From positions 99,192,845-99,256,844 of the forward strand of contig OZ026514.1 of NCBI GenBank assembly GCA_964019695.1: a stretch of 64,000 bases of DNA, written 5' to 3'. Positions within the stretch are counted from its first letter, which is position 1, and each line of letters starts with the position of its first letter. This DNA is from Loripinus fragilis. Lineage: Eukaryota; Mollusca; Bivalvia; Lucinida; Lucinidae. Of the stretch, positions 5,036 to 64,000 are shown piece after piece. Under the pieces are notes generated by a model. It saw only the letters and a program-made list of their open reading frames with translations. It was not told the DNA's origin and searched no databases. The translations under genes and the position numbers were made by a program.

Positions 5036-5130
5036 CCGGGCCCCGAGGTTATTGAACTTTTTACATGCTCAACTCAACTAAGCATGAAGTTTATAAAGCT
5101 TTTTAAAGATGTTAAAATGCCAACAATGAC
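5036..5130. repeat. Fragment of the GGCC-GAGGTTATAAAACTTT element
   Basis: Matches the left end of the TIR elements at 17481, 38619, 47241 and 60986 (GAGGTTATTGAACTTTTT, then CATGCTCAACTCAACTAAGC). The right part is missing. Confidence 0.6.
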
Positions 5131-5420
5131 GAAAATCTGTTGCGATTGATGATCAAAGTTACCAAACCCAGATTATTCTGTCCAGATAGGAAAACATTCT
5201 TTCAAAACCCAGTATTTCATTGGAGTACCATTATTGCAGTTGCATATATAGTTACTGTACAGAGTTATCTCTGCTCTGTTATAGGATAATGTACAGTAAT
5301 TAATCAGAGTTTGTAGTTAAAAAATGTTAATATGGCAGACAGTGGTGACCCAGAGTCTGTGCAAATTTCCAAGTCTACTCATAGCCATTACTAACAGAAA
5401 TGTTACTAGGTTTTGTCCAA

Positions 5421-7301: not shown

Positions 7302-7633
7302 CTACAACCTCATTATTTACCAATGTACCTGTTTATCGGCATCAAGAATGAAAAGGGTTCATAAAACGAATGATGAAAAATTAATTAGAATGCATCAAAA
7401 AATAAAGCCTAGCTAAATGGAAGAAGTTGAGAAAGAATTGAACGAGTGAATTGATAAATCTTTATCTTAAACTTTGCAAAGTAATAAAAGAACAGGTGCA
7501 AAGATCTATTTGATACCAGGTAAAAATGAACAACAAATATGAATCTGGGTAGTGCAAGAAAACACTACCATCTAAACATACAGCACACATTGGAATTTGT
7601 CTTTCGTTAAGTCATTCTTCCAACAAATGAACT

Positions 7634-7842
7634 AGAGAGCACAGTGGCTCAGTGGCAGAGTGCTTGACTCGAGACCGAGGGACCATGGGACCGCGGGTTC
7701 AAGCCTCTCCGGCTTCACTGTGTTGTGTCCTTGAGCAAGACACATTTAACCTTGCTTAGTACTAGTTCAACCCAGGAAGACCCATCCAGACATAACTGAA
7801 AAATTGTTGACTGGGACGTAAAGAATCAAATCAAACAGAAAT
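7634..7842 (+). mobile_element. tRNA-derived SINE, family A, full-length
   Basis: Box A-like GTGGCTCAGTGGCAGAGTG, box B-like GGTTCAAGCC, the TTGAGCAAGACA block and the AATCAAATCAAACAGAAA tail. It is flanked by a 13-bp direct repeat with one mismatch (CAACAAATGAACT at 7621 and CAACAAAAGAACT at 7843), which fixes both ends. Confidence 0.9.
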
Positions 7843-11139: not shown

Positions 11140-13010
11140 TGTACCCATAGAGGAAACCAGTGGCTATGTTCCATAGAGGAAATCAAGTGGCAATGTTCCA
11201 TAGAGAAAACAAGTGGCAATGTCCTATGGATGAAACAAGTGGCAATGTCCCATAGAGAAAACAAGTGGCAACATGTCCCATAGAGAAACAAGTGGCAACA
11301 TATCCCATAGAGAAAACAAGTGGCAATATGACATAGAAAAATCAAGTGGCAATGTCCCATAGAGGAAACAAGTGGCAATGTCTCATTATGGAAAAATGGC
11401 AATGTCCATTAGAGGAAACAAGTGGCAATGTCCCATAGAGGAATCAAGTGGCAATGTACCATGGAGAAAACAAGTGGCTATGTCCCAAAGAGGAAACAAA
11501 TGGCAATGTCCAATAGAGGAATCAAGTGGCAATGTACCATGGAGAAAACAAGTGACAATGTCCCATAGAGGAAACAAGTGGCAATGCCCTGTAGAGGAAA
11601 CAAATGGCAATGTCCCATAGAGGAATCAAGTGGCAATGTACCACGGAAAAAACCAGTGGCTATGTCCCAAAGAGGAAACAAATGGCAATGTCCCGTAGAG
11701 GAATCAAGTGGCAATGTACCATGGAGAAAACAAGTGACAATGTCCCATAGAGGAAACAAGTGGCAATGCCCTGTAGAGGAAACAAATGGCAATGTCCCAT
11801 AGAGGAATCAAGTGGCAATGTACCATGGAGAAAACAAGTGGATATGTCCAAAAGAGGAAACAAATGGCAATGTCCCATAGAGGAATCAAGTGGCAATGTA
11901 CCATGGAGAAAACAAGTGACAATGTCCCGTAGAGGAAACAAGTGGCAATGCCCTGTAGAGAAAACAAATGGCAATTTCCCATAGAGGAATCAATTGGCAA
12001 TGTACCACGGAGAAACCAGTGGCTATGTCCCATAGAGGTAACAAGTAGCAATGTTCCATAGAGGAAACAAGTGGCAATGTTCCATATAGGAAACAAGTGG
12101 CAATACCACATAGATAAAACAAGTGACAACATGTCCCATAGAGAAAACAAGTGACAATGTATCATAGAGGAAACAAGTGGCAATGTTCCATAGAGGTAAC
12201 AAGTGTTAGTATTTCCCATAGAGGAAACAAGTACTAATGTCCCACAGAGGAAACGAATTGCAATGTCCCATAGAGGAAACCAGTGGCTATGTTCCATATA
12301 GAAAACTAGTGACAATGTCCCATAGAGAAAACAAGTGGCAATGTCCCATAGAGGAAACAAGTGGCAATGTCCCATAGAGGAAACAAGTGGCAATGTCCCA
12401 TGGATGAAACAAGTGACAATATCCCAAAGAGAAAACAAGTGACAATGTCCCATGGAGAAACAAGTGGCTATGTCCCAAAGAGAAAACAAGTGGCAATGTC
12501 CCATAGAGAAAACAAGAGGCAATGTCACAGAGAAAACAAGTGGCAATGTCCCATGAATGAAACAAGTGGCAATGTCCTATGGATGAAACAAGTGGCAATG
12601 TCCCATAGAGAAAACAAGTGGCAATGTCCCATGGAGAAAACAAGTGGCAATGTCCCATAGAGAAAACAAGTGGCAATGTCCCATGGAGAAAACAAGTGGC
12701 AATGTCCCATAGAGAAAACAAGTGACAATGACCCATAGAGAAAACAGTGGCAATGTACCATAGAGAAAATAAGTGGCAATGTACCATGGATGAAACAAGT
12801 AGCAATGTCCCATGGATGAAACAAGTGGTACTGTCCCATAGAGAAAACTAGTGGCAAAGTCCAATGGATGAAACAAGCGACAATTAATGTCTGATATTGA
12901 AAACAAGTGACAATGTCCCATAGAGAAAAAACAATTGGCAGCAATGTCCCATGGATAAAACAAGTGGCAATGTCAGTCCCATAGAGAAAAACAATTGGCT
13001 ACATCTTTTT
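11140..13010. repeat. 26-bp minisatellite, about 70 units
   Basis: Unit AAGTGGCAATGTCCCATAGA followed by GAAAAC or GGAAAC. The 26-bp period is not a multiple of three, so a unit read in all three frames gives a 26-residue super-period. Because few units contain stops, long open frames arise on both strands (up to 280 codons on the minus strand at 11704-12546); these are artefacts. A higher-order pattern of about 182 bp (seven units) is visible at about 11400-11990. Confidence 0.95.
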
Positions 13011-17480: not shown

Positions 17481-17711
17481 GGCCCTGAGGTTACAAAACT
17501 TTTTTCATGCTCAACTCAACTGAGTATGAAATTTATCATGCTCATAACAATTGTTGGCATTTTAACATTTATCAGCATGATAAATACAACATCTGATAGT
17601 ACTAGTTGTAAGCAAGAAAAGTCTTTATTTTTCAGCAATTTAGTTTTATGAGCAGTTGAAATTTCATGCTCAGTTGATATGAGCATGAAAGTTTTATTAC
17701 CTCTGAGGGCC
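17481..17711. mobile_element. TIR element, GGCC(C/T)NGAGG family, copy
   Basis: Left end GGCCCTGAGGTTACAAAACT and right end AGTTTTATTACCTCTGAGGG/CC are inverted. Inner inverted arms include CATGCTCAACTCAACTGAGT. Related copies are at 38619, 47241, 49820 and 60986. No coding capacity. Confidence 0.8.
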
Positions 17712-17714
17712 TGG

Positions 17715-17890
17715 GAGAGCCCAGTGGCTCAATGGTAGAGTGCTTGACTCGAGGCCGCTGGGCCACAGGTTCAAGCCTCACTGCGTTGTGTCCTTGAGAG
17801 AGACATATTAATCCTAGCTTAGTACTGGTTCAACCCTACATAACTGAAAGATTGTTGATGGGATGTAAAGAATCAAATCAACAAACAAAC
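17715..17890 (+). mobile_element. tRNA-derived SINE, family A
   Basis: Box A-like CAGTGGCTCAATGGTAGAGT, box B-like GGTTCAAGCC, body and ATCAAATCAACAAACAAAC tail. It sits directly against the right end of the TIR element at 17481-17711. GGCCTGG occurs on both sides and may be the target duplication. Confidence 0.85.
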
Positions 17891-24386: not shown

Positions 24387-24581
24387 TGTTTGATTTGATT
24401 CTTTACGTCCCATCATCAATCTTTCAGTTATGTAGGGACAAGTCTTCCTGGGTTGAACCAGTACTAAGCTAGGATTAATGTAACTTGCTCAAGGACACAA
24501 CGCAGTGATGCCGGTGAGGCTCGAACCTGGGGCCTCTCTGTCTCAAGTCAAGCACTCTACACTGAGCCACTGCGCTCTCCA
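24387..24581 (-). mobile_element. tRNA-derived SINE, family A, minus strand
   Basis: Reverse order of tail (GTTTGATTTGATTCTTTACG), body (AACTTGCTCAAGGACACAAC), box B (GGCTCGAACC) and box A (CACTCTACACTGAGCCACTG). Full length; target duplication is not clear. Confidence 0.85.
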
Positions 24582-38618: not shown

Positions 38619-38830
38619 GGCCGAGAGGTTATAGAACTTTTTTCATGCTCAACTCAACTGAGCACTAAATTTCAACTGCTCATAAAATTTCTACAATTCC
38701 GACAAATAAGGAAGTTTCTTGTTTTAAGTTAGACTCTCAGATGTTGTATTTATCATGATGACAAATGTTAAAATGCCAACAATCATTGGCATTTTAACAT
38801 TTATGAGCAGGATAAATTTCATGCTCAGGT
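38619..38830. mobile_element. TIR element, GGCC-GAGG family, 3' decayed
   Basis: Left end GGCCGAGAGGTTATAGAACT, arms CATGCTCAACTCAACTGAGC, and a central palindrome TGTTAAAATGCCAACAATCA/TTGGCATTTTAACA. The right terminus is not preserved. Confidence 0.7.
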
Positions 38831-39263: not shown

Positions 39264-39736
39264 GGCAAGAATTTTTATATTAGTTGATTTACAGAAATTT
39301 TTTTTTTCAGATTTAGGGTCGGGGGACAAAAAAATGAAAAAAGCTCTGAAAATGACCAGTTAACTGGTCATTTTCAGAGCTTTTTTTTTTTTTTTTTTTA
39401 AGCTTTTTTTTTTTTTTTTTTAAGCTTTTTTTTTTTTTTTGATATCTCCAGAAAAAACAGTAGAACTAGTAAGACAAACCAACAGTCTGTATTTAAATTT
39501 TGAATATTCTATCATTTTCCTAAAAATCTGGACAGGACAATCACTTTTAACAGTGTCACTCTCATTAATACACAGACAGGACCTCAAAAAAAAATTTTTT
39601 TCAACGAAACAAATAATATTTAGAGTCGGTGGATTAAATATAAAAATAATTTTAGAAATCAAATTTTTTTTCTTTACTTTTACGGAAAATTACAGCAGGA
39701 GGTTTGTAAATCAACTAATAAAAAAAAATTCTGGCC
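39264..39736. mobile_element. PIF/Harbinger-like MITE, 473 bp, copy 2
   Basis: Same ends as 27869-28305 (left end with GGCAAGAATTTTTATATTAG, right end ATTCTGGCC) and TAA on both sides (39261-39263, 39737-39739). The interior is in the opposite orientation relative to copy 1, and carries a T16-18/AAGC duplication at 39380-39440. The open frames across it are not genes. Confidence 0.85.
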
Positions 39737-41728: not shown

Positions 41729-41869
41729 AGAGCCAAGTCTATCAGAGAAGCAGGCATATGCTGACTCGCTGGTGAAGCTTGAAGAAGCCCAGAAGTACCT
41801 GGGGCAGGCGTATTGTGTTCTTGTACTAGGTCTTGGGCTAGAGCAACAGCACCATATGTCATGTGGAAT
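41729..41869 (+). CDS. PPP1R36: PPP1R36-like exon A
   Basis: Acceptor TGTGTTTTTCAG, 46 complete codons from [16 protein letters not shown] through [13 protein letters not shown] to HHMSCG, donor AAT/GTAAGTACC. Read through the donor, the frame meets TAA at once. The last about 75 bases plus the donor are the founding unit of the 79-bp array that follows. Confidence 0.9.
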
Positions 41870-44800
41870 GTAAGTACCTGGGGCAGGCTTATTGTGTTCT
41901 TGTACTGGGCCTTGGTCTGGAGCAGCAGCACCATATGTCATGTGAAATGTAAGTACCTGGGGCAGGCCTATTGTGTTCTTGTACTGGGCCTTGGGCTGGA
42001 GCAGCAACACCATATGTCATGTGGAATGTAAGTACCTGGGGCAGGCCTATTGTGTTCTTGTACTAGGTCTTGGGCTGAAGCAGCAGCACCATAAGTCATG
42101 TGGAATGTAAGTACCTTGGGCAGGCCTATTGTGTTCTTGTACTAGGTCTTGGGCTGAAGCAGCAGCACCATATGTCATGTGGAATGTAAGTACCTGGGGC
42201 AGGCCTATTGTGTTCTTGTACTGGGCCTTGGGCTGGAGCAGCAGCACCATATGTCATGTGGAATGTAAGCACCTGGGGCAGGCCTATTGTGTTCTTGTAC
42301 TGGGCCTTGGGCTGGAGCAGCAGCACCATATGTCCTGTGGAATGTAAGTACCTGGGGCAGGCCTATTGTGTTCTTGTACTGGACCTTGGGCTTGAGCAGC
42401 AGCACCATATGTCATGTGGAATGTAAGTACCTGGGGCTGGCCTATTGTGTTCTTGTTCTGGGTCTTGGGCTGGAGCAGCAGCACCATATGTCATGTGAAA
42501 TGTAAGTACATGTACCTGGGGCAGGCTTATTGTGTTCTTGTACTGGGTCTTGGGCTGGAGCAGCAGCACCATATGTCATGTGGAATGTAAGTACCTGGGG
42601 CAGGCCTATTGTGTTCTTGTACTGGACCTTGGGCTTGAGCAGCAGCACCATATGTCATGTTGAATGTTAGTACCTGGGGCACCCCTATTGTGTTCTTGTA
42701 CTGGGCCTTGGGCTGGAGCAGCAGCACCATATGTCATGTGGAATGTAAGTACCTGGGGCAGGCCCATTGTGTTTTTGTACTTGGTCTTGGGCTGAAGCAA
42801 CAGCACCATATGTCATGTGGAATGTAAGTACCTGGGGCAGGCCTATTGTGCTTTTGTACTGGGCCTTTGGTTGGAGCAACAGCACCATATGTCATGTGGA
42901 ATGTAAGTACCTTGGGCAGGCCTATTGTGCTCTTGTACTGGGTCTTGGGCTGGAGCAGCAGCACCATATGTCATTTGGAATGTAAGTACCTGGGGCACCC
43001 CTATTGTGTTCTTGTACCGGGCCTTGGGCTGGAGCAACAGCACCATATGTCATGTGGAATGTAAGTACCTTGGGCAGGCCTATTGTGTTCTTGTACTGGG
43101 TCTTGGGCTGGAGAAGCAGCACCATATGTCATGTGGAATGTAAGTACCTGGGGCAGGCTTATTGTGTTCTTGTACTGGGCCTTGGGCTGGAGCAGCAACA
43201 CCATATGTCATGTGGAATGTAAGTACCTGGGGCAGGCCTATTGTGTTTTTGTACTTGGTATTGGGCTGAAGCAACAGCACCATATGTCATGTGAAATGTA
43301 AGTACCCGGGGCAGGCCTATTGTTTTCTTGTACTTGGCCTTTGGCTGGAGCAGCAGCACCATATGTCATGTGGAATGTAAGTACCTTGGGCAGGCCTATT
43401 GTGCTCTTGTACTGGGTCTTGGGCTGGAGCAGCAGCACCATATGTCATTTGGAATGTAAGTACCTGGGGCACCCCTATTGTGTTCTTGTACTGGGCCTTG
43501 GGCCGGAGCAACAGCACCATATGTCATGTGGAATGTAAGTACCTGGGGCAGGCCTATTGTGTTCTTGTACTGGGCCTTGGGCTGGAGCAGCAACACCATA
43601 TGTCATGTGGAATGTAAGTACCTGGGGCAGGCCTATTGTGTTTTTGTACTTGGTCTTGGGCTGAAGCAACAGCACCATATGTCATGTGAAATGTAAGTAC
43701 CTGGGGCAGGCCTATTGTTTTCTTGTACTTGGCCTTTGGCTGGAGCAGCAGCACCATATGTCATGTGGAATGTAAGTACCTTGGGCAGGCCTATTGTGTT
43801 CTTGTACTAGGTCTTGGGCTAGAGCAGCAGCACCATATGTCATGTGGAATGTAAGTACCTGGGGCTGGCCTATTGTGTTCTTGTTCTGGGTCTTGGGCTG
43901 GAGCAGCAGCACCATATGTCATGTGGAATGTAAGTACCAGGGGCTGGCCTATTGTGTTCTTGTTCTGTGTCTTGGGCTGGAGCAGCAGCACCATATGTCA
44001 TGTGAAATGTAAGTACATGTACCTGGGGCAGGCTTATTGTGTTCTTGCACTGGGTCTTGGGCTGGAGCATCAGCACCATATGTCATGTGGAATGTAAGTA
44101 CCTGGGGCAGGCCTATTGTGTTCTTGTACTGGACCTTGGGCTTGAGCAGCAGCACCATATGTCATGTTGAATGTTAGTACCTGGGGCACCACCGATTGTG
44201 TTTTTGTACCGGGCCTTGGGCTGGAGCAGCAGCACCATATGTCATGTGGAATGTAAGTACCTGGGGCAGGCCTATTGTGTTCTTGTACTGGGCCTTGGGC
44301 TGGAGCAGCAGCACCATATGTCATGTGGAATGTAAGTACCTGGGGCAGGCCTATTGTGCTTTTGTACTGGGCCTTGGGCTGGAGCAACAGCACCATATGT
44401 CATTTGGAATGTTAGTACCTGGGGCAGGCCTATTGTGTTCTTGTACTGGGCCTTGGGCTGGAGCAGCAGCACTATATGTCATGTGGAATGTAAGTACCTG
44501 GGGCAGGACTATTGTGTTCTTGTACTGGGTCTTGGGCTTGAGCAGCAACACCATAAGTCCTGTGGAATGTAAGTACCTGGGACAGGCCTATTGTTTTCTT
44601 GTACTGGGTCTTTGGCTGGAGCAGCAGCACCATATGTCATGTGGAATGTAAGTACCTTGCGCAGGCCTATTGTGTTCTTGTACTGGGCCTTGGGGTGGAG
44701 CAACATCACCATATGTCATGTGGAATGTAAGTACCTGGGGCAGGCCTATTGTGTTTTTGTACTTGGTCTTGGGCTGAAGCAACAGCACCATATGTCATGT

Positions 44801-47559
44801 GAAATGTAAGTACCTGGGGCAGGCCTATTGTTTTCTTGTACTTGGCCTTTGGCTGGAGCAGCAGCACCATATGTCATGTGGAATGTAAGTACCTTGGGCA
44901 GGCCTATTGTGCTCTTGTACTGGGCCTTGGGCTGTAGCAGCAGCACCATATGTCATTTGGAATGTAAGTACCTGGGGCACCCCTATTGTGTTCTTGTACT
45001 GGGCCTTGGGCTGGAGCAACATCACCATATGTCATGTGGAATGTAAGTACCTGGGGCAGGCCTATTGTGTTTTTGTTCTTGGTCTTGGGCTGAAGCAACA
45101 GCACCATATGTCATGTGAAATGTAAGTACCTGGGGCAGGCCTATTGTTTTCTTGTATTTGGCCTTTGGCTGGAGCAGCAGCACCATATGTCATGTGGAAT
45201 GTAAGTACCTTGGGCAGGCCTATTGTGCTCTTGTACTGGGCCTTGGGCTGGAGCAGCAGCACCATATGTCATTTGGAATGTAAGTACTTGGGGCACCCCT
45301 ATTGTGTTCTTGTACTGGGCCTTGGGCTGGAGCAACAGCACCATATGTCATGCGGAATGTAAGTACCTTGGGCAGGCCTATTGTGCTCTTGTACTGGGCC
45401 TTGGGCTGGAGCAGCAGCACCATATGTCATTTGGAATGTAAGTACTTGGGGCACCCCTATTGTGTTCTTGTACTGGGCCTTGGGCTGGAGCAATAGCACC
45501 ATATGTCATGTGGAATGTAAGTACCTTGGGCAGTCCTATTGTGTTCTTGTACTGGGCCTTGGGCTGGAGCAGCAGCACCATATGTCATGTGGAATGTAAG
45601 TACCTTGGGCAGGCCTATTGTGCTCTTGTACTGGGCCTTGGGCTGGAGCAGCAGCACCATATATCATGTGGAATGTAAGTACCTTGGGCAGGGCTTATTG
45701 TGTTCTTGTACTTGGCCTTGGACTGGAGCAACAGCACCATATGTCATGTGGAATGTAAGTACCTGGGGCAGGCCTATTGTGTTCTTGTACTGGACCTTGG
45801 GCTGGAGCAGCAACACCATATGTCATGTGGAATGTAAGTACCTGGGGCAGGCCTATTGTGTTCTTGTACTGGGCCTTGGGCTGGAGCAGCAGCACCATAT
45901 GTCATGTGGAATGTAAGTACCTGGGGCAGGGCTATTGTGTTCTTGTACTGGGCCTTGGGGTGGAGCAGTAGCACCATAAGTCATGTGGAATGTAAGTGCA
46001 GATATACTTAAATAGTATAACCAGAAACGATTTGGGAAATAAGCTTTTAATAGATTTTAATTTTTGAACCTATGCAATATTTTTGCAATCTTTACCATAA
46101 TTTTAGAACCTTTATCATATTTCTAGAGCCTTTATCACAATTTCAGAACCTTTCCATGATTTTAGAACCTTTACCATAAGTTTAGAACCTTAACTGAAAT
46201 TTAAGAACCTTTACCATAATTTCAGAACCTTTACCATAATTTATAACCTTTACCATAATTTCAGAACCAATTTGAGAACCTTTACCATAATTTAAGAACA
46301 ATCACCATAATTGTAGAACCTTTACCATAATTTATAACCTTTACCATAATTTCAGAACCAATTTGAGAACCTTTACCATAATTTAAGAGCCTTTAACATA
46401 ATTTCAGAACCTTTACCATAATTTTAGAACCTTTACCATAATTTTATAACCTTTACCATTATTTATAACCTTTATCATAATTTCTGAACCTTTACCATAA
46501 TTTCTGAACCTTTACCATAATTGGAGAACCTTTACCATAATTGGAGAACCTTTACCATAATTGGAGAACCTTTACCATTATTTCAGAACCTTTACCATAA
46601 TTTCAGAACCTTTACCATAATTTTAGAACCTTTATTATAATTGCAGAACAATGACCATAATTTTAGAACCTTTTCCATAATTTTTGGAATCTTTACCATA
46701 ATTTTTGGAACCTTTACCATAATTTTTGGAACCTTTACCATAATTTCAGAACCTTTACCATAATTTTAGAACCTTTACCAAATATTAGAACCTATACCAC
46801 AATTTCAGGACCTTCACTATAATTTTAGAGCTGTTACCATAATTTTTTAACCTTTACCTTTAATTTTAGAACCTTTTGCCATAATTTTAGAACCGTTACC
46901 ATAATTGCAGAACCTTTACCATAATTTTAGAACCGTTACCATAATTGCAGAACCTTTACCATAATTTTAGAACCTTACCATAATTGCAGAACCTTTACAT
47001 TTACCATTATTTTTGAACCTTACTTGTTTGAATGATTTTTTATCGCCTGCTGATATATTTTCGTATTAACTTTGTTTTTAAAATTCTTCCATGAATAACA
47101 TAAGAGTGTCATCGGTTTGGCCCCACATATTGTCAGGCCTGATCTCATCAGGGTCCAAACTGTTTGCAAAGGTTATCAGCAGACAACAAAAATCACCGCT
47201 AGCAAGGAAAGAGTTTAAGGTGAAGAAGAAATAACTCCCTGGCCCAGAGGTTATAAAACTTTTTTTCATGCTCAACTCAACTGAGTACGAAATTTCAGCT
47301 GCTAATAAAAACTAAAATATCGACAAAATAGAGAAGTTTATTGCTTTATTTAAGTCTCTCAGACGTTGTATTTATCAAGCTAATAAATGTCAAAATGCCA
47401 ACAATTGTTGGCATTTTTACATTTATGAGCAGGATAAATTATGTGCTAAACTGAGTTGAGCATGAATAAAGTTTATAACCTCTGGGCCTGGCCACTTTTG
47501 TACATTTCAGATCCAGGGTATCCTCTACTGACAAAGACAGGTCCATGTTTGAGGTAAGC

Positions 47560-47648
<89 letters not shown>

Positions 47649-50600
47649 CCTTTGCCATTATCAGGCCTCTACGTTAAGAATGCTTAATTAAAAATCATTT
47701 TTCTTTTTTCTCAAACATATTATGTGGGTACTCAAAAGAACCTTCTCACTGAGAGGGTTCTTTTAAGCTCCCAAAACATATGTTAAAACAGAAGGTTAAG
47801 CAAATATTAATTTAAAGCTTAAGAATATCGTTTATCTTGACCTATGCATTATCAGCTGCAGCAGGGAGCACAGTAGCTCAGTGGTAGAGTGCTTGACATC
47901 ATCGTTATCGTCATCATCAGCATTATCATCATCATCATTGTCATCATCATCATCAATAATGTCATCGTCGTCGTCATCGTGGTCATCATCATCACCATCA
48001 TCATCATCATCACCATCCCCATCCCCATCATCATCATCATCAACATCATCATCATCACTATCATCATCATCCAAACAAATGTACATTGTATGTGTATACG
48101 TAGTTCTGAAAACAGCCAGCCCTTTTAAAATGTGTGTGTTTTTAGCTCAAACGATCACTTTGTGCTCAAAGATGAGCTTTTGTGATCATTCTTTGATCGA
48201 CCTGCATTGTGTGTATACTTTTTTTTTTAAACAACATCTCCTAAATATCTGGCAAATTTAAAATAGTAAGGCCCTCTACCAAAATTGCTCAATGGTTCTG
48301 CTCCGCCCAACAAAATGGCCACCAGAGCTAAACAAGAAAATCTTCAAACATCTTCTTTTCCTGAACTGCTGGTACTTATTCAAAATAATTGAACACATAC
48401 ATTTAATGTTCCTCATAGGCCCTCTACCAAATATGCCCAAAAGGTTTCACTCTGCTGAACAAAATTGCCACCAGATTTAAAATAAAAAAAAATTCAAATG
48501 TTTTCTCCTGAACTTTTGGCTCTTATTCAAAATCACACAAATATTCCTCATAAGGCCCTCTACCAAATTGCCCAAATAGTTCCTCTCCACTAAACAAAAT
48601 AGACACCAGAGCCACATCTACTCCTGCATCTTCGCAAGCCAAGGGTACTAAGTCCACTTCATTCCTTACGCACGTAAGGAATGAAGTGGACTTAGTACCC
48701 TTGGCTTGCGAAGATGCCACTCCTGAAATGCTGGCCCAAATTCAAAATAATTTCACACAAATTTTCCTCATGAAGCCCTCTGCTAAAAATGTCCAAATAG
48801 TTTTACTCTTTCTAACAAAATAGCTGCCAGAGTTAAAAATAGAAAATCTGTTCTGGAATTTCTAGCCCAAATTCAGAATAATTTTCAAAAATGTCATTCA
48901 TAAGGCCCTCTACCAAATTGCCATGATGGTTTTGCTGTGCTCAAAAAATTTTATATGTTTGTTCCAACATAAATATTTATGAATTTATACTCACAACAAT
49001 ATTACATATGCTACCCTATGTCACTATTTTCTCATTTCAGAATTTGTACTCATTCTGTACTTTTGTGGTGTGGATCTCCTTCAAGAGAAAGGACCATGAA
49101 GCAGTAAAGAAGGAAGTTGGCAGGTACGGTAAATGTTCTAAAATTTTGAAAACTTTTCTCTTTCTGTTCTCAAATAAAACGTTGGTCTTCAGGGCTGGAA
49201 TTTGCAAAATTGTTGTCAAAATAGTAAACAGGGAATACCCTGATCAGACTTTTTCTTTTGAAGCAGTCTGATCTGAGTCTGCACTGTTTTTGTAGGCTTG
49301 TTTGGGCGGCGCAACTAGTCTTCGAAACTTTAGAACATTTATCATAGTAGAGAAATTTAACTCTGCATGCTGGGTAATTTTTCATGCTTTTGTTGTCGTC
49401 TGCTGACATTTCAAAGTTAACTTCTTTCAGGAACAATATAAGAGTGTCAAACAGTTTGACATTCTGTCAGTCCTGATCTGGGTCCAAACTGTTTGTAAAG
49501 ATTGTAAAAATTTAGCTCTTTGTATTGTAACTCTTTCAAAATTAAGTTTTTCAAAAAACTCTTTCTTGAAGGATATAAGAGAGTCAAACAGTTTGGATCC
49601 AGATCAGGACTGACATTCTATCAGTCCTGATCTGGCAAAGATTATCAACAGATGACAAAAGTCACCACTAGCAAAGAAAGAGTTAATCCCATATTTTCAG
49701 CTCACCAGCTTTTGTGTGCATAGCATGATAAATACCATCCTTGGTAACCCTGGCGTGACCCATTCCATACCCACTGTGATGAATGCAGTGGTAACCGAAT
49801 GGTTCACTCCTGAGTTACCGAGGATGGATAAATACAACATCTGAGAAAGCCTCACTGGCGTCACTGCGTTGTGTCCTTGAGCAAGACACATTGATCCTAG
49901 CTTAGTACTGGTTCAACCCAGGAAGACCTGTCCCTTTATAACTAAAAGATTGTTGATGGATGTAAAGAATCAAACAAACAAACAAACAAACAAATAAAAC
50001 AACATCTGAGAGTTTGAAAACAAGAAATGTCTGTTGTTGTTTTTTTTACAGCATTTTAGTTTTAAAGAGCAATTGAAATTTCATTCTCCGCTGAGTTGAG
50101 CATGAAAAAAAGTTTTTATCTTCTTTCAGGATGCTGCGTTCCAACACTTTTAATCCTGCCATAAGAGTGAAAAATGCACCCGAAGGTAAGTTTTCTATTT
50201 TATACATAGTCAAAATTGTAATTGTTTTCTTGCCCATTGACTTAAACATGTGTTTTGGATGCTCAAAAGAACAGTCTCATTGAGACGGTTCTTTTGAGTA
50301 CCCACAACATATGTTTTAAATGAGAAATAAGAAAAATAATTTTAAATAACACACTCATAACCGAGGCCTGTTATATCTATATTACCACAAAATCTACATG
50401 CCAATTTTGAACACAACATTTAACTTCCTTATGAGGTGTGTAAAAAGTAGAGATTGAATTGCAATTAGCTTTGTCTGTTTGATTTGATTCTTTACATCCC
50501 AGTCAAGAATTTTTCAGTTATATCGGGACAGGTCATCCTGGGTTGAACCAGTACTAAGCTAGGATTAATGTGTCTTGCTCAAGGACACAACGCAGTGACG

Positions 50601-53600
50601 CGAGTGAGGATTGAACCTGCAGCCCTTCAGTCTCGAGTCAAGCACTCTACCACTGAGCCACTGCGCTCCCAAATTGCAAATAGCATAAAAAGTAAGTGCC
50701 CAGGTAATACGCAAATCACACACAGCAGAACAGCCCACGGCACCGCGAGGAAGAGCCACAGAACACTAACAGTCACAAGGCATCAGGAAGACAATTAAAG
50801 TAGAGCAACCAGCTCTGTCTTGACTCTTTCTCGTCAAGATGATTGCAAAACTAGAAAGGACACTGAGTACTGCATAACAAAACAAGGACCAAGCACAGAA
50901 CCCACACAAACAATGGGAGCTACAATAAAACAATAAATTAACAACAACAGAACCACTGCCATAGAACGGACACCAGCCTAATATCTCTGATCAGAATATT
51001 AGAAAATGTTATGACCACCACTTCTGAACCATATAGTTATTTATTATACAGTAAAACCTGTGTAAAACGACCACTTTCAAAAAGACAAAAAATCGTTTTC
51101 AAAACCAATTATCTCAAAATGCAGGTCAAAAGTATTGCAGAATGCTCCAATGCAGAATGCTCCCTTTGGAGCATTCTGCAATACTTTCTATCTTCATTTA
51201 ACTTCCATTTGTCATTAAGATCTTTGTTTTGTCTATTTTTGAGTGGCCGTTTTACACAGGTTTTATTGTATATAACCTAAAAACAGAAGATTTCTCATTG
51301 GTCGAAAGGGATCTATTTTGGAAAGTCATATTCAGTAAAACCTGTGTAAAACAGCCACTCAAAAATAGACAAAACGAAGATCATAATAACAATTGGTAGC
51401 TTATTGAAGGTTGAAAGTATTACAGAATGCTTTCCTTGGAGCATTCTGCAATACTTTTCACCTGCATTAAGTGATAATTGGTCTTGATAACCAATTTTTG
51501 GTCTTTTTGAGAGTGGCCGTTTTACACAGGTTTTACTGTTGTGTAAACAACTCATAAGATACCTACCATGCACTTATATGAGGATGTCAATGGGGTTTAC
51601 TGCGAATCATGGCCCTAAAATTTATTGATTAATGAATTTGGCCCTAAATTTTAATGGTTAGCAAATTTTTAGGGTAAATTTTACCGAATAACGGAATGAG
51701 AGGTGCAAGTGATTAGCCAATTTAGGCTTAAAAATATAATGATTAGCGATTTTTCGGCAAAAAAATTACCAAATAGCGGAATGGTGTGTTTTATCGGTTA
51801 GCGAATTCGATGGAAAAAGCTATTGTACCTCGTAAATGCCTCTAGACAGGTTTTAATTTTTACTGATTACTGATTTTTGGGGCTAATTTTTACCTTTTAC
51901 TGATTTTTGGGCCAAAATTTTACTGATTACTGATTTTTGGGCCAAAATTTAACTGATTAGCGAATTTTGGTGAAAATTTTATTGATCAGCGATTTCAGAG
52001 GTACCCCATTGAGACCCTCTTATATGAGCATGTGCAAATATTGGGTTAAATATGGTATTATTATTACAGAAAAAGAGGTGGAGAAGAAAGAGGAGGGTGG
52101 AAGAAGAGAAATACAAGTGGAGAAAAAAATCACACCTGCTGAATATAGAAGACTTCATCCGTAAGATACATTATTTACTGAATACTTACACACTTAACTC
52201 TTTGCCTACTGGGCTTTGCATGCTTTTTTGCCGTCAAAACCAACTTTTTTATATGGCGCACAGTGCTTGACTTGAGACCGAGGGGCCGCAGGTTGGAGCC
52301 TCACCGGCGTCACTGTTTTGTGTCCTTGAGTAAGACGACATTTATCATTGCTTAGTACTGGTTCAACCAAGGAAGACCTGTCCCCACATAACTGCAAAAT
52401 TGTTGACGGGGACATATAGAATCAAATCGAACAAAAATCAACTTTTTTGAAAAATTCTTTCGGGAATACCATCAGATTGTCACAGTTTGGATCCAGATCA
52501 GGACCGACATTTTTTCGGGCCTGATCTGGGTCCAAACTGTTTGCAAATGTTATCAGCAGATGACACTAGTAGGCAAAGAGTTCGCCCTTTATATACCTAT
52601 GGAGTTATCCATAAAGTTGGATACAATGAAGTTAAGATTGTCCATTTTATGTTGAGGGGTCACAGTTTACAAATTCTAAATAATTTTGAATTTCTTTCTC
52701 TAAAAATCATTTTTGTCTCTAAAGCAAAAAATGCCGACCCTGATGAAATGCTGTGACATATATCACCGGGGTCCTCACTGTTTGCCAAAGTACATGTTTT
52801 CTTCAATGTACATTATTATATACACTGTAAAGCATTATGCAGGGCTCTATGGCAATGTTCGACAGTTCTAGTGTTCAATTAATATACCATGTACACCAAA
52901 AAAAAAAAAAAAAGTTGCAAAAAAGTGGTAAAATGCTTGACAAAGCCTCGCATTTTGTATCTTTTCTCAACTCATTCAATAGGTTCAATAATATATATGC
53001 ATTTAAGAAGATACCCTCTATACATGTACTGATTTGTTGACTTCTTTTCAATACTTTCAGGAAAAGGCCAGCAATCAAGTCTATAATTCAGTAAGTATTC
53101 AAATAATTCAGTAAGTATACAATTATTTCAGTAAGTATACAATTAATTCAGTAAGTTTACAATTGATTCAGTGAGTATACAATTAATTCAGTAAGTATTC
53201 AATTAATTCAGTGAGTAAACAAATAATTCAGTAAGTATTCAAGCAATTCGTAAGTAAACTGACCTACAGAAATAATCTGTCATATATTTCAATGGTAATT
53301 TTGATTTTTGATTCTGTATGCCCTAATACTGATCGGATTCTAATGAAATAATGAGCATGTATAGCAAAATTAATGTGCTTAAGAAATCAAGTTTTAACTT
53401 TATTATGCACATGCTGAATACTGCGTTATGGAGACGTCAACGTCAAACTTTGAATGGCTATTTCTCTGTCAATAATGGGAATAATTTTTAACTGCAACGG
53501 AATCAGCAGACACCAGAAAACAGTGCATCTACAAAATGGTGAGAAACGGTTTAGTATTGACAAAGAAAATCAATTTATTCATATCAAAGTTACATTTTCA

Positions 53601-56600
53601 AATTTATGTCATCCTCAGTTCTCCACTGAGGACAATTTTTTGAAACTTTAGGGTGGCAATTTGTTTGGCAATCTCCAAACTATACTTCCAACTTGGTTTA
53701 CTTTTTCTTAACACTCATTAAGCTTCTTGCACAATGTAAATTATCTGAAAAAGTGTGAACGCCAGAGTGACACCGAACGTTGGTGACTGCAATTCTAAAT
53801 TTCATTTGCTTTGTTTTAATTGAGATGTTTGTCATGGCCTATGACCAAATTTTAAATCTTGACCAAATTAATAAAGATCCTGGGACCAATTAAAAACTGT
53901 CGGGTTTCTTTTGTTGTTGAGTATTTAAAATGATTACAGTCTACTCTCGATACCTCGAATTTCAAGGGACTGGGCAAAATATGTCGAGTTATCAGTAGTT
54001 CGAGGTAACCAAATCATGACGTATACCCACCATTTTGGGGCGAAATAATTCACGTTCTACCTGTCCATTAATAGATCGTTACTATAAGGAGCTATTTCAT
54101 TTATAAACTACGGGATGAATTGACCCAAGAATCAATTGACATTTGAAATTGAAACATTAAAACTTCTCAGGTACCGCTACAGTCCTGACATATATGACTA
54201 TTTTTTCACTTTCTAAGACTAAATAAAATAAACATAGCATTTTCAGTTGGCAACTGGTCCCGCGGTCGCAGGTTTTACCCTTCCGTAAGTAGTCAAATTT
54301 TAAGCCCCAACAGTGGTCATGCACGTTTTAATTGTGCACATGCCTTCCTAATCTATTTTTGTCATGACATGACCAATGTCCGAAAATAGCCTTAAACGCA
54401 CAAGTCTGTTTTCAAAATAAAAAAAATGGCCCGAGAAACAATTAAGTTATACTTTGGCCTTACTTTGGCCTTATTTAAAACGAGCAGTCATCGGACAGAG
54501 ATTGCTCAAATATGACACATTAGCTCATGTAGCCGCTTTGAAGTTGTACCACAATAGATCAATAGAATTCGGCGACCGCGGTCAATTATGTAATTATACA
54601 TATACAACACACTCATTTACAACTGCATGTGTCACACACGTGGACCAAGTGATCAAACAATTGGTGGTTTTAATGGGGATAATTAACGTTGAAAGCGGTG
54701 GATTAATTGGAGACACATTCAGATAAAAAGGTAATTTCTTATGAAATGGAATCGAGTTATGCGTTGTAAAATACACTAAAATTGATCAGCGGGACCAGTT
54801 TTTCGTAACGAGTTAACAGTTTTATTGACTTAGCCGTTGTCGAGATAAACGTTGTGGAATTGCAATAATATATAGGGGAAAATACCGGGACCGGGCCGTC
54901 AGGTTGAGATAAGTGATAGTATTGAGTTATGCATAGTTGAGTTAACGAAAGTCGACTGTACTTAGCTTGTACAGTAGGATCACGTAAATTCTAAGTCTTA
55001 AGAACTAGAGGTTTTATTTTGAATTATCAGTAGTTGGAATTATAGGGAGGTAGACAGAAAATTATATATCCTCCAAAAATGATTAGTATCAAAAGAAACG
55101 TTTCTTTAATGCATCTGAAACTTTTTTTTCAAAAATATTTCATAAATAGGTCCTTTTCTCTGATTGCATTGTGTCTTAAATTTAATTCGAATTAGCGAGT
55201 ATTTAAAACAATCAGCGTTCAAATTTTCATGGTTTTACTGTATTTTGTTACCTTACAGTCCTGGCAGTCAGTGTTGTTCTTTTAACTCTTTGCATCACAC
55301 TTTTTTTTTTCTTGTCTTTTGATTTTTTTTTCAAAATAAACATTTTCCAAAAATTATTTTAGGAACATCATGAGTGTCAAAACAGTTTGGACCCAGTATG
55401 ATTTTTTATCAAAATAAACATTTTCAAAAAAGTAATTTAGGAATATCATCAGTGCCCTTGTCTGGCCTGATCTGGGTCCAAACGTTTTTGCAAAGGTTAT
55501 CAACAAACAACACTAGAGTTAAAGAATAATAATAAGGCTTGTTATTTCATATTTATAAAGCAAGATCTTGTTCTTCTTTTGCACAATTTATAAAATCAGA
55601 TTGCTTAGTTCCAAAAATGTTTCCTATACGAAGTGTATGAAAACAGTTGGTAGCGATAAGTGAAAATTGGTGAAATTGAGTCTCATAGTATAAGTACCCA
55701 AGTTAGAATGTTCAATGTACTGTACAGTCAGACCTGTGTAAAACGGCCACTCAGATCTTAATGACAAATGGTAGCTTAATGAAGGTCAAACATATTGCAG
55801 AATGCTCCCCTTGGAGCATTCTGCAGTATTTTTTACCTTCATTATTAAAGCGATATTTGGTCTTGAAAACCAATTTTCGGTCTTTTTGAGAGCAGCCATT
55901 TTACACAGGTTTTACTTTACTGTATTGTATCTATTGCAGTCAGCGATCTCCTGCTGTTGTGGCTATATTGCCGTCACCCAAGGAAGAAGCTCATTGGTTG
56001 TTTAAAACTAGAAGACCTCTCTCACCAAAGTAAGTTGGGAAGTTTCTTCACCTCCCTATTGTAATGATACAATACAGGGCTGTGGAAATACCATGCCCGA
56101 CTTGCCCTACCTGGTCCCATTTCATTCAGGACAAGTTGAAATTTCTATTTACTTGTCCTTGGACAAGAACAAATTGATGTATAAAGTTAATACAATTCTG
56201 TATTTCATATTTTGATTAATTATTACAAGCTCACATATTGCATTGAAAACAGTGTGGACCCTGATCAGCTGGCTTCTTCAGAAGCCAGCTGATCTGGATC
56301 TACACTGTTAACAAGAGAGTTCATATCTGGTTTCATATTTCAAAAGAGTAAATTGTTTAAGCATGGAAAGGTACATGTATAAGCTAATCTGTTCTTTCAG
56401 ACAAGTGAAAATTTTCTTCGGGCAAGTATGTTATGGCCATTTACTTGTCCCTGAACAAGTAGAATTTTTTACTATTTCCACACCCCTGATACAATATATT
56501 CCCTATGTAAAGCCATGTTCATGTTCTGTAAGAATGAACTATTCTGTAGGTGTGTCATGTCATAATTTACCAATTGAACAGAGAAATTATAGGAAAATAA

Positions 56601-59600
56601 CCAATTTTATAAAGAAATTATAGGAAAATGACCAGTTTTATGAAGAAACTATAGCAACATAAATAATTTTACAAAAAAATTATAGGAAAATATCCAATTT
56701 TACAGAGAAACAGTCACAGTTTATCTTTAAGACTGTATCTTTATATTCATTGAGTTTATGCGGCTTTAAGAACATCAGTAAGAAACCAAGGCACCCATTT
56801 AGCTATTTTTGCTGAAAACCGTCAGAATTCCAGCCAAAATTATGGTTACACTTTAGTTCTATTTTCTGAGCTAGCAATATTTCAACTTAACATACGGTAC
56901 ATTTGATTTGAAATAACTTGTTACAATCTCAGCTATTATTCTGTATCAATTCTAATGGTTGTTTAAAAAAGCGCTAAAACGAAGCCACAACAACATAGTT
57001 TTTAATTTCCGCCAGTGACCAGTTCAGGTATACTGGTCCCAGGTTGCATGAATAATGCTCATTTTAATGGTGTCTTTATGGTGTTACAGCTTGCTGAACA
57101 AGAAAGGCCATGAAAATGATGATGATGATGAAGATATTTACTTCATTATGTTGCATGAATAATCCTCATTATAAAGATGCCTTTATTGTGTTATAGCTCA
57201 CTGAGCAAGAAAGGCCATGAAAATGATGATGTAGATATTACTTGATTATGTTGCATGAATAATGCTCATTTTAATGGTGTCTTTATTGTGTTGTAGCTCA
57301 CTGAGCAAGAAAGGCCATGAAAATGATGATGTAGATATTACTTGATTATGTTGCATGAATAATGCTCATTTTAAAGGTGTCTCTATTGTGTTGTAGCTTA
57401 CTGAGCAAGAAAGGCCATGAAAATAATGATGATGTAGATATTTACTTAATTATCTTGCATGAATAATGCTCATTTTAATGGTGTCTCTATTGTGTTGTAG
57501 CTCACTGAGCAAGAAAGGCCATGAAAATAATGATGATGTAGATATTTACTTGATTATGGTGTATGAATAATACATTTTAATGGTGTCTTTATTGTGTTGT
57601 AGCTCACTGAGCAAGAAAGGCCATGAAAATAATGATGATGTAGATATTTACTTGATTATGGTGTATGAATAATTCTCATTTTAATGATGTCTTTATTGTG
57701 TTGTAGCTCACTGAGCAAGAAAGGCCATGAAAATAATGATGATGTAGATATTTACTTGATTATGTTGTATGAATAATTCTCATTTTAATGCTGTCTTTAT
57801 TGTGTTGTAGCTCACTGAGCAAGAAAGGCCATGAAAATGATGATGATGAAGAACTAGAAGAACCAGATTTAAATAAATCCGGACTCGTTTCTTTCAAGAA
57901 AACTTTCAAGTAAGATATACGGGCAGCGATATGAGAAGCTTGTCTTAACTCTTTACTCCATAATAAAGGCCTTTTGAGGCCTTTGAAATATCATGTATTT
58001 GAAAATATTATGGAAAATGGAGCATTTCTCCAAAAGAGCTCCAAAAGAGCAAATGCTCCATTTTCCATAATATTTTCAAAAGTATTCAAAACTTAACTTT
58101 AATTTTTCTTGAATTTTTCAATGTTGTCTAAAAATAGAAAATGATGTCATTATAGCCTATGGAGTAAAGAGTTAAGGGTTTCTGACCAAGTAAGGCTAAA
58201 AACAGCCTGCTCAACTACAGAGACTAGTTAGTATATTGAAATTATGCATGGAGCTAGATGGGCTATTGTGTTTTCCAGATAGCGAATAACAAAGATGCTG
58301 ATCAGACTGAGTGGATGCGCAGGCTGGTCTGCATCTTTGTTGTTCCCATGCAACAACATCAGGTTTTCTCACCTTGAGGCTCATACAGGGTAGTTTATGA
58401 CTGGGGTTAATGGCTGTGATAATAAAAGTAATAAAATATGGCTTTTGAGTATGGACATTTGTGGGGTCTAGATGCAATGTTAGAATTAAAACCAATTACT
58501 CTTTGTTTGTTATAACGGTGACTTGTTGCTACTGATAATCTTTGCAAACAGTTTGGATCCAGATAACAACTGACAGAACTGATCTGGATCCAAACAGTTT
58601 GATTCACTGATAGTGTTCCTGATTTTTTTGTGGTTGTTGGAAAAGGTAATTTTGAAAAAAAGTCAGCAGATGACAACAAAAGCATGCAAAACCCCTATAA
58701 CTTTTTTTTATTAGACAAGAAATTAATGAAAAACAAAAAGGTAGTTTCTAAAGGTTTTGTTTTGCTTGTTAAAAATGCTATATTTTATATTTCACATATG
58801 AAAATATACCGGTAATTATTTGTAATCTACAATAAATTCCAATAAAGGGGGTACATGCATTAAGGGGCTAAAATGGCCCCCTTTGGAGCCAAAAACTGAA
58901 AATTGCTTTCCACAAATTTCTTTTGATGGGTTTATTAGAAGAATGACTGAAGTGTAAAATTTCGGCATTTATTTAAATTTTACCGTTGCTATGGTAACAA
59001 AAATGGCCGACAAAATAGGCATAAAATAGAGAAATTGCCATTTTTGACTAAATTTAAGGCTTTTAGAGACCATTTTTTTTAGAATTAGATATCAGCACAG
59101 CTAAATACCAAAAAATCCTTTTAATATGTTGTGTGTCATGATAATTCTCATCATCTGTTTAAATATCTTTTTGGTATTTGCTTGTGCTCTATGTTAATTG
59201 CTCTGTCAAACGTGTCAAATTTGCTCCAAAATGGTCAATTTCCTATTTTCAGCCTATTTTGATGGCCATTTTTGTTACCATAGCAATGGTAAAAGTCAAA
59301 CTAATACCAGACTGATACACTTCGGCCATTGTTCTAATAAACTAGTAAGAAGAATTTTGGTGAAATGTGAACTTCATATTTTGGCCTCATAGGGGGCCAA
59401 AATAGCCTCTTAATGCACGTAGCTCTTTTCTAGTATTTCATATATTGTTGTGTGTACCATATTCAGCCAAACAAAGGCACATGCTCCTAAAAATCACACT
59501 GAGTACTTAACAAGCTGTTCACACTATCTAGACCTGATTTCTAGTCTATCCAGTGGTGTCATTTCATCATTCATATAAATTCTTTGAGTGGATTTTGATC

Positions 59601-62600
59601 AGCTGGCTTAATGAAGCCAGCTGATCTGGAATTAAGCCAGCTGATCTGGATTTACACTCTTTTTGAAAGAGGGTATAGGATTTTGAAAAAGTTATGCTCA
59701 CTTATAATATGGTAGTAATTAAATGTTATGTATTTTCTCGTTGCAGATAGCCAATTTGCTTTTATCTTCTGATTCATTTGAAAGAGTGTGGGACTCACAA
59801 ACTCATGAGTTTGAATCCCATCGTTGGCAAGGTGTATGAGAATAAAGTGTCTTGCTCAAGAAAACAACACAACTGTGTTGTGTTCTTGAACAAGACACTT
59901 AATTCTCATATCTTAGTACTGGTTCAACCCCAAAACATGTCCCGTTATGACTGAAAAATTGTTGACTGTGAAGTACATGTAAAGCATCAACAGAAACAAA
60001 CCAATTTCCTGATTATTACATATATTGTATTGTTTAGGTGACTCATTCGGGAAACAGATTTAAACAAGTCTGAGACTTATTTCTGTATCCCTTTCAAATG
60101 TAATGTATTGTGTATATGATTTGTTTGTATCTTGATGTACTTATATTTGAATAAAATACTGTTTACACCAATTTCCTGATCGCTGTTTGTTTCAGGTGTG
60201 GTATAATTGGTGAGCCCTTAAGTCAGTACAATGCTATCACTCTGTCCCCTGTTGGGGCTGATAATGAAGACGAGGACAATGAAGGGGAAGAAGGGGAACA
60301 GAAACAGTAAGTGGGGCTACTCAAAGGGGATAAAATAGTACAAATTATACAGGCTTCCAGATAAGCCGTTTGTCAGTACAATGCTATAACTCTATCCCCT
60401 ATTAAGGCTTATAATGAAGACAAGGACAATGAAGGGGAAGAAGGGGAACAGAAACAGTAAGTGGGGCTACTCTAAGGGAATAAAATAGTAGAAACAGTAA
60501 GTGGGGCTACTCAAAAGGAATAAAATAGTAGAAACAGTAAGTGGGGCTACTCTAAGGGGATAAAATAGTAGAAACTGTAAGTGGGGCTACTCAAAGGGAA
60601 TAAAATAGTAGAAACTGTAAGTGGGGCTACTCAAAGGGAATAAAATAGTAGAAACTGTAAGTGGGGCTACTCAAAGGGAATAAAATAGTAGAAATTGTAA
60701 GTGGGGCTACTAAAAGGGAATAAAATAGTAGAAACTGTAAGTGGGGCTACTCAAAGGGAATAAAATAGTAGAAATAATAAGTGGGGCTACTCAAAGGGAA
60801 TAAAACAGCAGAAATTATAAGTGGGGCTACTCACTCAAAGGGAATAAAATAGTAGAAATTATAATTGGGGCTACTCAAAGGGAATGAAATAGTAGAAACA
60901 GTAAGTGGGGCTACTCAAAAGGAATAAAATAGTAGAAATAGCAAGTGGGGCTACTCAAAGGGAATAAAATTGTAGAAATTATACTGGCCCCCAGGTTATA
61001 AAACTTTTTTCATACTCAACTCAACTGAGCCCGAATTTTCAACTGCTAATAAAAACTAAAATACCGACAAATAAAGAAGTTTCCTGCTTTAAGTAACTCA
61101 GATGCTGTATTTAGCATGCTAATAAATGTTAAAATGCCAACAATTGCTGGCATTTTAACATTTATGAGCAGGATAAATTTCATGCTCAGGTGAGTTGAGC
61201 ATGAGAAAAGTTTAATAACCTCAGGGCCAGGCCTCCAGATAAGAGTGTGTATTTTAAAATTATTTTTCTTATTTCGCAAGAAAAACATGTTGTCAAGCAC
61301 CTGCTGGATGTGATACTAATGAGCTCCTGCATGACATAACTGACTACAGTAAAACCTGTGTAAAACGGCCACTCAAAATTAGACAAAACAAAGGTCTTAA
61401 TGACAAGTAGTAGCTTAATGAACTAGTAGCTTAATGAAGGTGGAAAGTATTGCAGAATGCTCCTTTGGAGCATTCTGCAATATTTTTGACCTGCATTAAA
61501 CGATAATTGGTCTTGAAAACCATTTTTTGGTCTTTATGAGTGGCTGTTTTACGCAAGTTTTACTGTATGCACAGGCTGATCTGAGTCTTTGTTAGCTCAT
61601 GAAGAAAAATTAGGCCTTGGCTAGCCATTCAGTCTTATTTGAGTGGATTCATGTCCAAGCTCATCTGAGTATTCACTGGAGACACAGTTTTATTTTGTTG
61701 GTTCAGTTTAATTTTAGGTGAGAACAGCAAGATATTAATGTTGATTTTAACATTTTAGAACTTTTTCAATATCTTCTAGATACTCTTAAAATCTATTTGG
61801 GTATAATATACATTTTATGTAACAAATCACAATATATCAGTCCCAAGTAGCAAACAAAATTATGTGCACCCACCAAAATTCAGATCAATTTGCCCATCCT
61901 CCAAAAGGTAAGTGAGCTGCGACAGGTGATTTCCAACAATGTGGCATTTTGATAAGTGTAGACTATATATGCGCAGGCTAATCTGAGGCTTTGCTGGTCG
62001 CACATACCATATTGTTGGAAATCTCATGTCGCAGCTCAAGTGAGTATGACCAGGAAATACCACAATCACACACCACAGACTAACTCATGGCACTGCAAGG
62101 AAGAGCCACAGAACACTAATATTCATAAGACATCATTAAGACAATACAGTAAAACCTGTGTAAAACGGCCACTCAAAAATAGACAAAATATAGATCTTAA
62201 TGACAAATGGTAGCTTAATGAAGGTCGAAAGTATTGCAGAATGCTCCCTCACCTGCAGTAAGTGATAATTGGTCTTGAAAATCAATTTGTGGTCTTTTGG
62301 AGAGTGGGCATACAGGCCGTCATACTTTGGTTCAAAAATTTTGTTTTCTATTTCAGAGAAGAAGAAAACAATGAAAAAGCGGGTCAGCCAGGTAGGTGCT
62401 GTTACATTTGGGCCTCGACGTGACAAAACCTGTCTTCGGGGTTCCCGACAAAAAAGAGACTCAAACTGGTCTTTTCAGCTACAGGGACTAGCTAGAAAAC
62501 GGAAATTTCGTTCTTTCCAAAAAGCGAATAATGAAGGCACTGATCAGTCTGCGTGGATGACAGATTTTCTCACGTTGAGGCCCATTTTATAGTGGAAAAC

Positions 62601-63945: not shown

Positions 63946-64000
63946 AACACTGCTTTACTATTAAAGTGCCAATCACTACTGCAGTAGACAGCAAACTTTT

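Follow-up and report, generated by a model that had tools for sequence, protein, structure and literature searches.

Four splice junctions of a PPP1R36 gene in the bivalve Loripinus fragilis lie in unrelated tandem arrays

A PPP1R36 gene of Loripinus fragilis carries tandem arrays at the donors of exons A, F and I and at the acceptor of exon H. These are 4 of the 18 internal junctions of the gene, part of which lies in a 64,000-nucleotide stretch of genomic DNA, hereafter the window. The repeat unit of each array contains exon bases, the GT or AG of the splice site, and intron bases, the composition of a minisatellite at an exon-intron boundary. All four arrays reported in a preliminary description of the locus are present and were recovered by TRF, with the correction that the period of array F is 20 bp, not 21 bp. 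They differ in unit length, composition and exon share. The description had also called them unrelated and independent in origin, and indeed none of the six array pairs gives a blastn-short match at E values up to 10. The arrays probably arose by neutral tandem duplication across junctions and expanded into the introns of an intact gene, where they were tolerated.

Table 1. Exons and repeats of the PPP1R36 locus (positions in the window)
Feature	Start	End	Strand	Remarks
Exon A	41729	41869	+	donor GT at 41870; 98% identical to relative P0001 over 46 aa
Exon B	47511	47553	+	tblastn with relatives, alignment
Exon C	49041	49123	+	tblastn with relatives, alignment
Exon D	50130	50185	+	tblastn with relatives, alignment
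Exon E	52070	52160	+	tblastn with relatives, alignment
Exon F	53061	53090	+	donor GT at 53091; alignment with relatives
Exon G	55940	56029	+	tblastn with relatives, alignment
Exon H	57811	57909	+	tblastn with relatives, alignment
Exon I	60196	60306	+	donor GT at 60307; tblastn with relatives, alignment
Exon J	62357	62391	+	weak tblastn match (P0011 tail, E=0.016), alignment
Claimed exon K	63624	63709	+	without support from relatives
Array A	41793	45997	+	79-bp unit, 53.1 copies (TRF); spans exon A donor
Array F	53084	53256	+	20-bp unit, 8.7 copies (TRF); spans exon F donor
Array H	57043	57852	+	~104-bp unit, 7.9 copies (TRF); spans exon H acceptor
Array I	60450	60978	+	40-bp unit, 13.1 copies (TRF); on duplicated exon I donor
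Duplicate of the end of exon I plus donor and adjacent intron bases	60372	60490	+	150-bp offset, 110/119 identical
Control array	46058	46998	+	20-bp unit (TRF); inside intron A, no junction
CAT microsatellite	47560	47648	+	~30 copies; after 6 intron bases of exon B donor, junction excluded

The assignment of the gene to PPP1R36, first made in the preliminary description, is borne out by a domain match and by homologous proteins. The joined protein, taken with the claimed exon K, matches PF14895 (PPPI_inhib) over residues 24-226 with E=3.8e-23 and 82.7 bits, above the gathering cut-off of 25 bits. A database search with the same protein finds 109 homologues at E up to 0.001, some of which bear the name PPP1R36, in Mercenaria, Ruditapes, Mya and Mytilus. 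The best homologue, an unnamed sequence, shares 84% identity over 91% of the query, and proteins of Ruditapes, Mercenaria and Mactra antiquata share 71-78% identity over 81-93%. PPP1R36 is reported to be germline-enriched and linked to autophagy (PMC4838909).

Exons A to J are supported by relatives. The tblastn matches considered are those of three of the eight relatives used as queries, with low-scoring rows and matches inside array A left out. The ten exons are intact, with GT-AG sites present, and join in frame into 259 residues with no stops. An eleventh exon, K, had been proposed to continue this frame. It does not match the type of C-terminal tail (for example GMSRQKTDVSETVTDAFPDD) common to the 7 of 10 aligned relatives that reach the C-terminus, and it lacks support from them. 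The proposed eleven exons thus become ten.

Five queries for the N-terminal part of the relatives' proteins (~142 residues) did not locate it within the window among the best eight matches of each. The best of these matches (39519-39719) scores 24.6 bits with E=0.079, is 28% identical and is interrupted by a stop. Four tail queries likewise gave no convincing copy of the relatives' C-terminal tail exon within the window; the last exon may lie beyond position 64000. Pfam searches of nine of the 34 listed open reading frames, all upstream of exon A, yielded two sub-threshold matches (DUF732 and an hAT-like RNase H) and none above the cut-off. No gene was identified by these searches in positions 1-41700, which contain many tandem arrays, for example one of 70 copies of 26 bp at 11144-12974.

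The missing ends could mean that the locus is a partial or decaying copy of the gene, in which damage to junctions escapes selection, as full-length gene models exist in Mercenaria (P0005), Mya (P0010) and Sinanodonta (P0009). We regard such a copy as improbable, given the ten intact exons with their GT-AG sites, the high identity to relatives, and the first copy of array A, within exon A, where only synonymous changes are seen. In addition, the models of Mactra antiquata (P0002) and Ruditapes (P0003, P0025) likewise begin right before exon A, passing from unrelated residues directly into it, and the last exon may simply fall past the end of the window. The region upstream of exon A is possibly a very long intron of the PPP1R36 gene, which could give rise to models that start with unrelated residues.

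The unit of array A is composed of 77 exon bases followed by GT. The GT is kept in 53 of 53 copies, and the 9-mer AATGTAAGT at the donor is found in 49 of them. The motif AAGT occurs both at the point in the exon where the unit begins and behind the GT of the final copy, at the resumption of the intron (AAGTGCAGATA). This 4-base match may thus have served the first duplication. The bases behind the GT in copies 1-52 would be derived from exon sequence. A search for proteins containing the array, with its reading frame as the query, found none; it returned two PPP1R36 matches, each covering 17% of the query.

The copies of array A are diverged, with a mean pairwise identity of 0.918. This argues against the possibility that the arrays are artefacts of assembly. 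Long arrays are generally error-prone, but no evidence of an artefact was found at this locus, and we consider one extremely improbable. Among the 53 copies, eight identical pairs lie at least three copies apart.

Each unit of array F consists of 7 bases of the exon and 13 of the intron, and GT is kept in 9 of 9 donors. In array H, AG is kept in 8 of 8 copies, and exon H is joined by the last copy, whose AG ends at 57810. Copies 2 to 7 have 38-42 exon bases in common with exon H, and copy 1 just 8, with at most two mismatches allowed in each case.

Array I differs from its initial description, in which the exon I donor was placed within the array. The donor at 60307 does carry one 40-bp unit, but it lies outside the contiguous array. 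The array begins at 60450, on a duplicate that comprises the end of the exon, its donor and adjacent intron bases. This duplicate contains changes of G to K, D to Y and E to K at residues conserved in relatives, and exon I itself has none of the three. Counting the exon's own unit at 60300, array I has 14 copies, of which 10 contain GT and the four distal ones have lost it. Array I appears to have formed in two steps, a 150-bp-offset duplication and a 40-bp expansion on the second copy, presumably in that order.

The preliminary description had placed the functional splice site at the exon-proximal edge of each array. Two lines of evidence support this placement, the proteins of relatives and copy 1 of array A, in which all changes are synonymous. 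The relatives' proteins cross all four joins without extra residues, which fits the use of the first donor copy for exons A, F and I and of the last acceptor copy for exon H. The predicted PPP1R36 joins accordingly contain no array-derived residues, a comparison made with relatives as proteins alone. At all four junctions, the relatives' proteins are compatible with the exon-proximal copy alone.

Between the consensus of array A and its copy 1, which lies in the exon, there are five coding differences, all of them synonymous. The 48 other copies of standard length (four of the 53, of odd length, were left out) show 171 differences, 77 synonymous and 94 nonsynonymous. The contrast between copy 1 and the others is significant with all differences counted (Fisher P=0.02) and with each distinct change counted once (17 synonymous, 33 nonsynonymous; P=0.008). 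Copy 1 thus looks like coding sequence under selection. The test is modest, and the signal is not unique to copy 1, as copy 26 has four synonymous and no nonsynonymous differences.

The other copies of array A, intronic ones included, also have more synonymous changes than randomly expected (45% versus 24%). Shared variants and transitions may underlie this excess in the intronic copies.

The remaining copies are decoys in that their use would truncate the protein. In-frame stops follow in all 79 copies tested (52 of array A, 8 of F, 12 of I and 7 of H); these include three copies of array I without GT, and a further GT-less copy at 60770 was left out. Among decoys that keep GT or AG, a premature stop is encountered in 76 of 76. 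Every one of the 72 donor copies leads to the same stop, the TAA within the functional GTAAGT, located right behind the split codon.

Many of the decoys match the functional site itself. The same 9-mer is present in 48 of 52 decoys of array A, 5 of 8 of array F and 4 of 12 of array I; in array H, none of the seven decoys is identical to the functional acceptor from -20 to +3. Given the identical 9-mers in arrays A and F, the choice between copies must depend on position or context. Exon definition would favour the splice site nearest to the other end of the exon. With 48 decoys sharing the functional 9-mer over 4.1 kb, exon A is a naturally occurring test case for splice-site choice by the spliceosome.

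The decoys could instead be functional, forming a splicing rheostat in which copy number sets the use of decoys and hence the share of transcripts sent to decay. Such a role would agree with the retention of GT in arrays A (53/53) and F (9/9) and of AG in array H (8/8), functional sites included, and with the stop behind every retained decoy (76/76). Repeats that alter splicing have also been reported (PMC6692358, PMC5954066). However, the donor is not clearly better conserved than the rest of the array A unit. Its columns (-4 to +5) have a conservation of 0.969 versus 0.951 elsewhere, and 19 of the 79 nine-base windows of the unit are conserved as well as the donor. The decoys of array A therefore appear to be neither purged nor preserved, and column conservation points to no clear selection on these donors in either direction. 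In array I, the decoys decay by loss of GT. We judge the rheostat to be very improbable. Neutral tandem duplication is consistent with the same two observations, the four of 14 copies of array I without GT and the indifferent fate of the array A decoys.

The placement of the arrays is less readily explained by neutral duplication. Under random placement, about 0.3 arrays would be expected to span a junction, and four do. The estimate is based on seed units placed uniformly between exon A and exon J, with 18 internal junctions, and on arrays taken from TRF rows with nested rows merged. For the seven arrays with at least four copies, 0.26 junction-spanning arrays are expected (P=4e-5). The expectation is 0.31 for a list of 10 arrays (P=1.3e-4) and 0.31 for 12 arrays including CAT repeats (P=1.4e-4), and it is 0.32 if the seed of array I is taken as 150 bp (P=9e-5); four are seen in every case. 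These P values are post hoc, the gene having been picked among many genes for the noticed pattern. The enrichment is thus a reason for a genome-wide count, not proof of a mechanism. Though significant, it does not show a shared mechanism for the four arrays, such as the preliminary description had suggested.

One such mechanism would make exon-intron boundaries in this lineage hot spots at which tandem duplications start, for example by break repair or slippage at transcribed junctions. The ratio of four junction-spanning arrays among seven points in this direction. So does the exon I donor, which was amplified twice, by the 150-bp-offset duplication and by a 40-bp unit that once more extends across the junction, which is no longer functional there, as does the CAT array that begins 6 bases past the junction of exon B. 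Set against these observations, the statistic concerns one striking gene among many and includes three control arrays only, and the four arrays, with their differing unit lengths, composition and exon share, have no common sequence. GC skew on the coding strand is positive in all four junction arrays (+0.10 to +0.47), but is likewise positive in two of the three intronic arrays compared. It thus does not single out R-loops as the cause, and the idea was dropped as it does not discriminate junction from intronic arrays. Hot spots are a tentative reading and, in our estimate, an unlikely one.

Several other repeats are found in the window. The CAT microsatellite beside exon B represents a fifth junction with an adjoining array. 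An interspersed element (GGTTATAAAACTTTTTTCATGCTCAACTCAACTGAG) occurs at 47411-47494, 61150-61233, 5039-5133, 17481-17575 and 38619-38713; by eye, one copy lies right after the end of array I and another before exon B. An intron repeat, in most copies with a palindromic core, GCAGAATGCTCC...GGAGCATTCTGC, was located, partly by eye, at 51060-51545, 55724-55925, 61345-61565 and 62150-62310. The core of its last copy is incomplete, and copies end ~20 bases short of the acceptor of exon G and ~50 bases short of that of exon J. Repeats with a tRNA-promoter-like stretch (CAGTGGCTCAGTGGTAGAGTGCTTGACT, GGTTCGAGCCTC), which we take to be SINE-like, are present at 457-544, 7616-7703, 17696-17783 and 24490-24560 and, by eye, near 47860 and 52250. 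A tRNA scan detects no tRNA in them, and the window as a whole gives no match in that scan or in Rfam at gathering scores.

Minisatellites at exon-intron boundaries are a known kind of structure, and four in one gene are unusual in degree. Turri and colleagues reportedly described in 1995 a minisatellite that gives rise to multiple splice donors in the human gene IFI6, also called 6-16 or G1P3. That system resembles the clam arrays in that a repeat supplies several splice donors. It reportedly involves one junction with several donors in use, whereas the clam gene has four junctions and up to 53 copies. The clam arrays further comprise an acceptor as well as donors, and their inner copies are candidate sites, unlike the donors of the human gene.

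The preliminary description knew of no comparable case. Its claim goes too far for boundary minisatellites as such, which are in print, but agrees with the literature searched where several junctions within the same gene are concerned. In human genes that lie in segmental duplications, internal tandem repeats are found at exon-intron boundaries, with 27 intron modifications, preferentially by minisatellites (PMC2812944). The units of those minisatellites average ~30 bp, and the arrays differ from those of the clam in being shorter (~4 repeats on average) and in belonging to recent paralogues. The passages of that source covered here do not mention a gene with several such boundaries, and no case of several junctions in one gene amplified into arrays was found in the literature searched.

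A further parallel is provided by intron gain through tandem duplications that cross a junction or copy AGGT segments, as presented in a paper that cites Rogers 1989 and fission yeast cases (PMC4974935). There, too, tandem duplication copies splice signals and one copy stays intronic. Those cases create a new intron, whereas in the clam gene introns that were already there appear to have grown longer, with no change to the joined protein.

Taken as neutral, the history of the arrays, in a region rich in minisatellites, would have begun at each of the four junctions with a small tandem duplication, one end exonic and one intronic, that produced a second copy of the splice site. Extra copies on the intron side would be removed with the intron and so be nearly neutral. 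Slippage or unequal exchange could then have expanded them to 8-53 copies. The spliceosome would take the exon-proximal copy mainly by position, as expected from exon definition. Transcripts using a decoy, all with an in-frame stop, would be subject to nonsense-mediated decay at a tolerable cost. The order of events in array growth is the one we infer. Apart from the placement of the arrays, neutral duplication leaves the synonymous excess in the other copies of array A (45% versus 24%) unexplained. The use of splice sites is deduced from the proteins of relatives, and copy 26 weakens the signal of copy 1.

A broader proposition is that, in this bivalve lineage, minisatellites arise preferentially at exon-intron boundaries. 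Many genes would then have junctions with decoy arrays, variable in copy number and kept by positional choice and decay. We hold this generalization to be rather unlikely. If junctions are hot spots of tandem duplication, they would constitute an added mutational source for the evolution of splice sites and the growth of introns.
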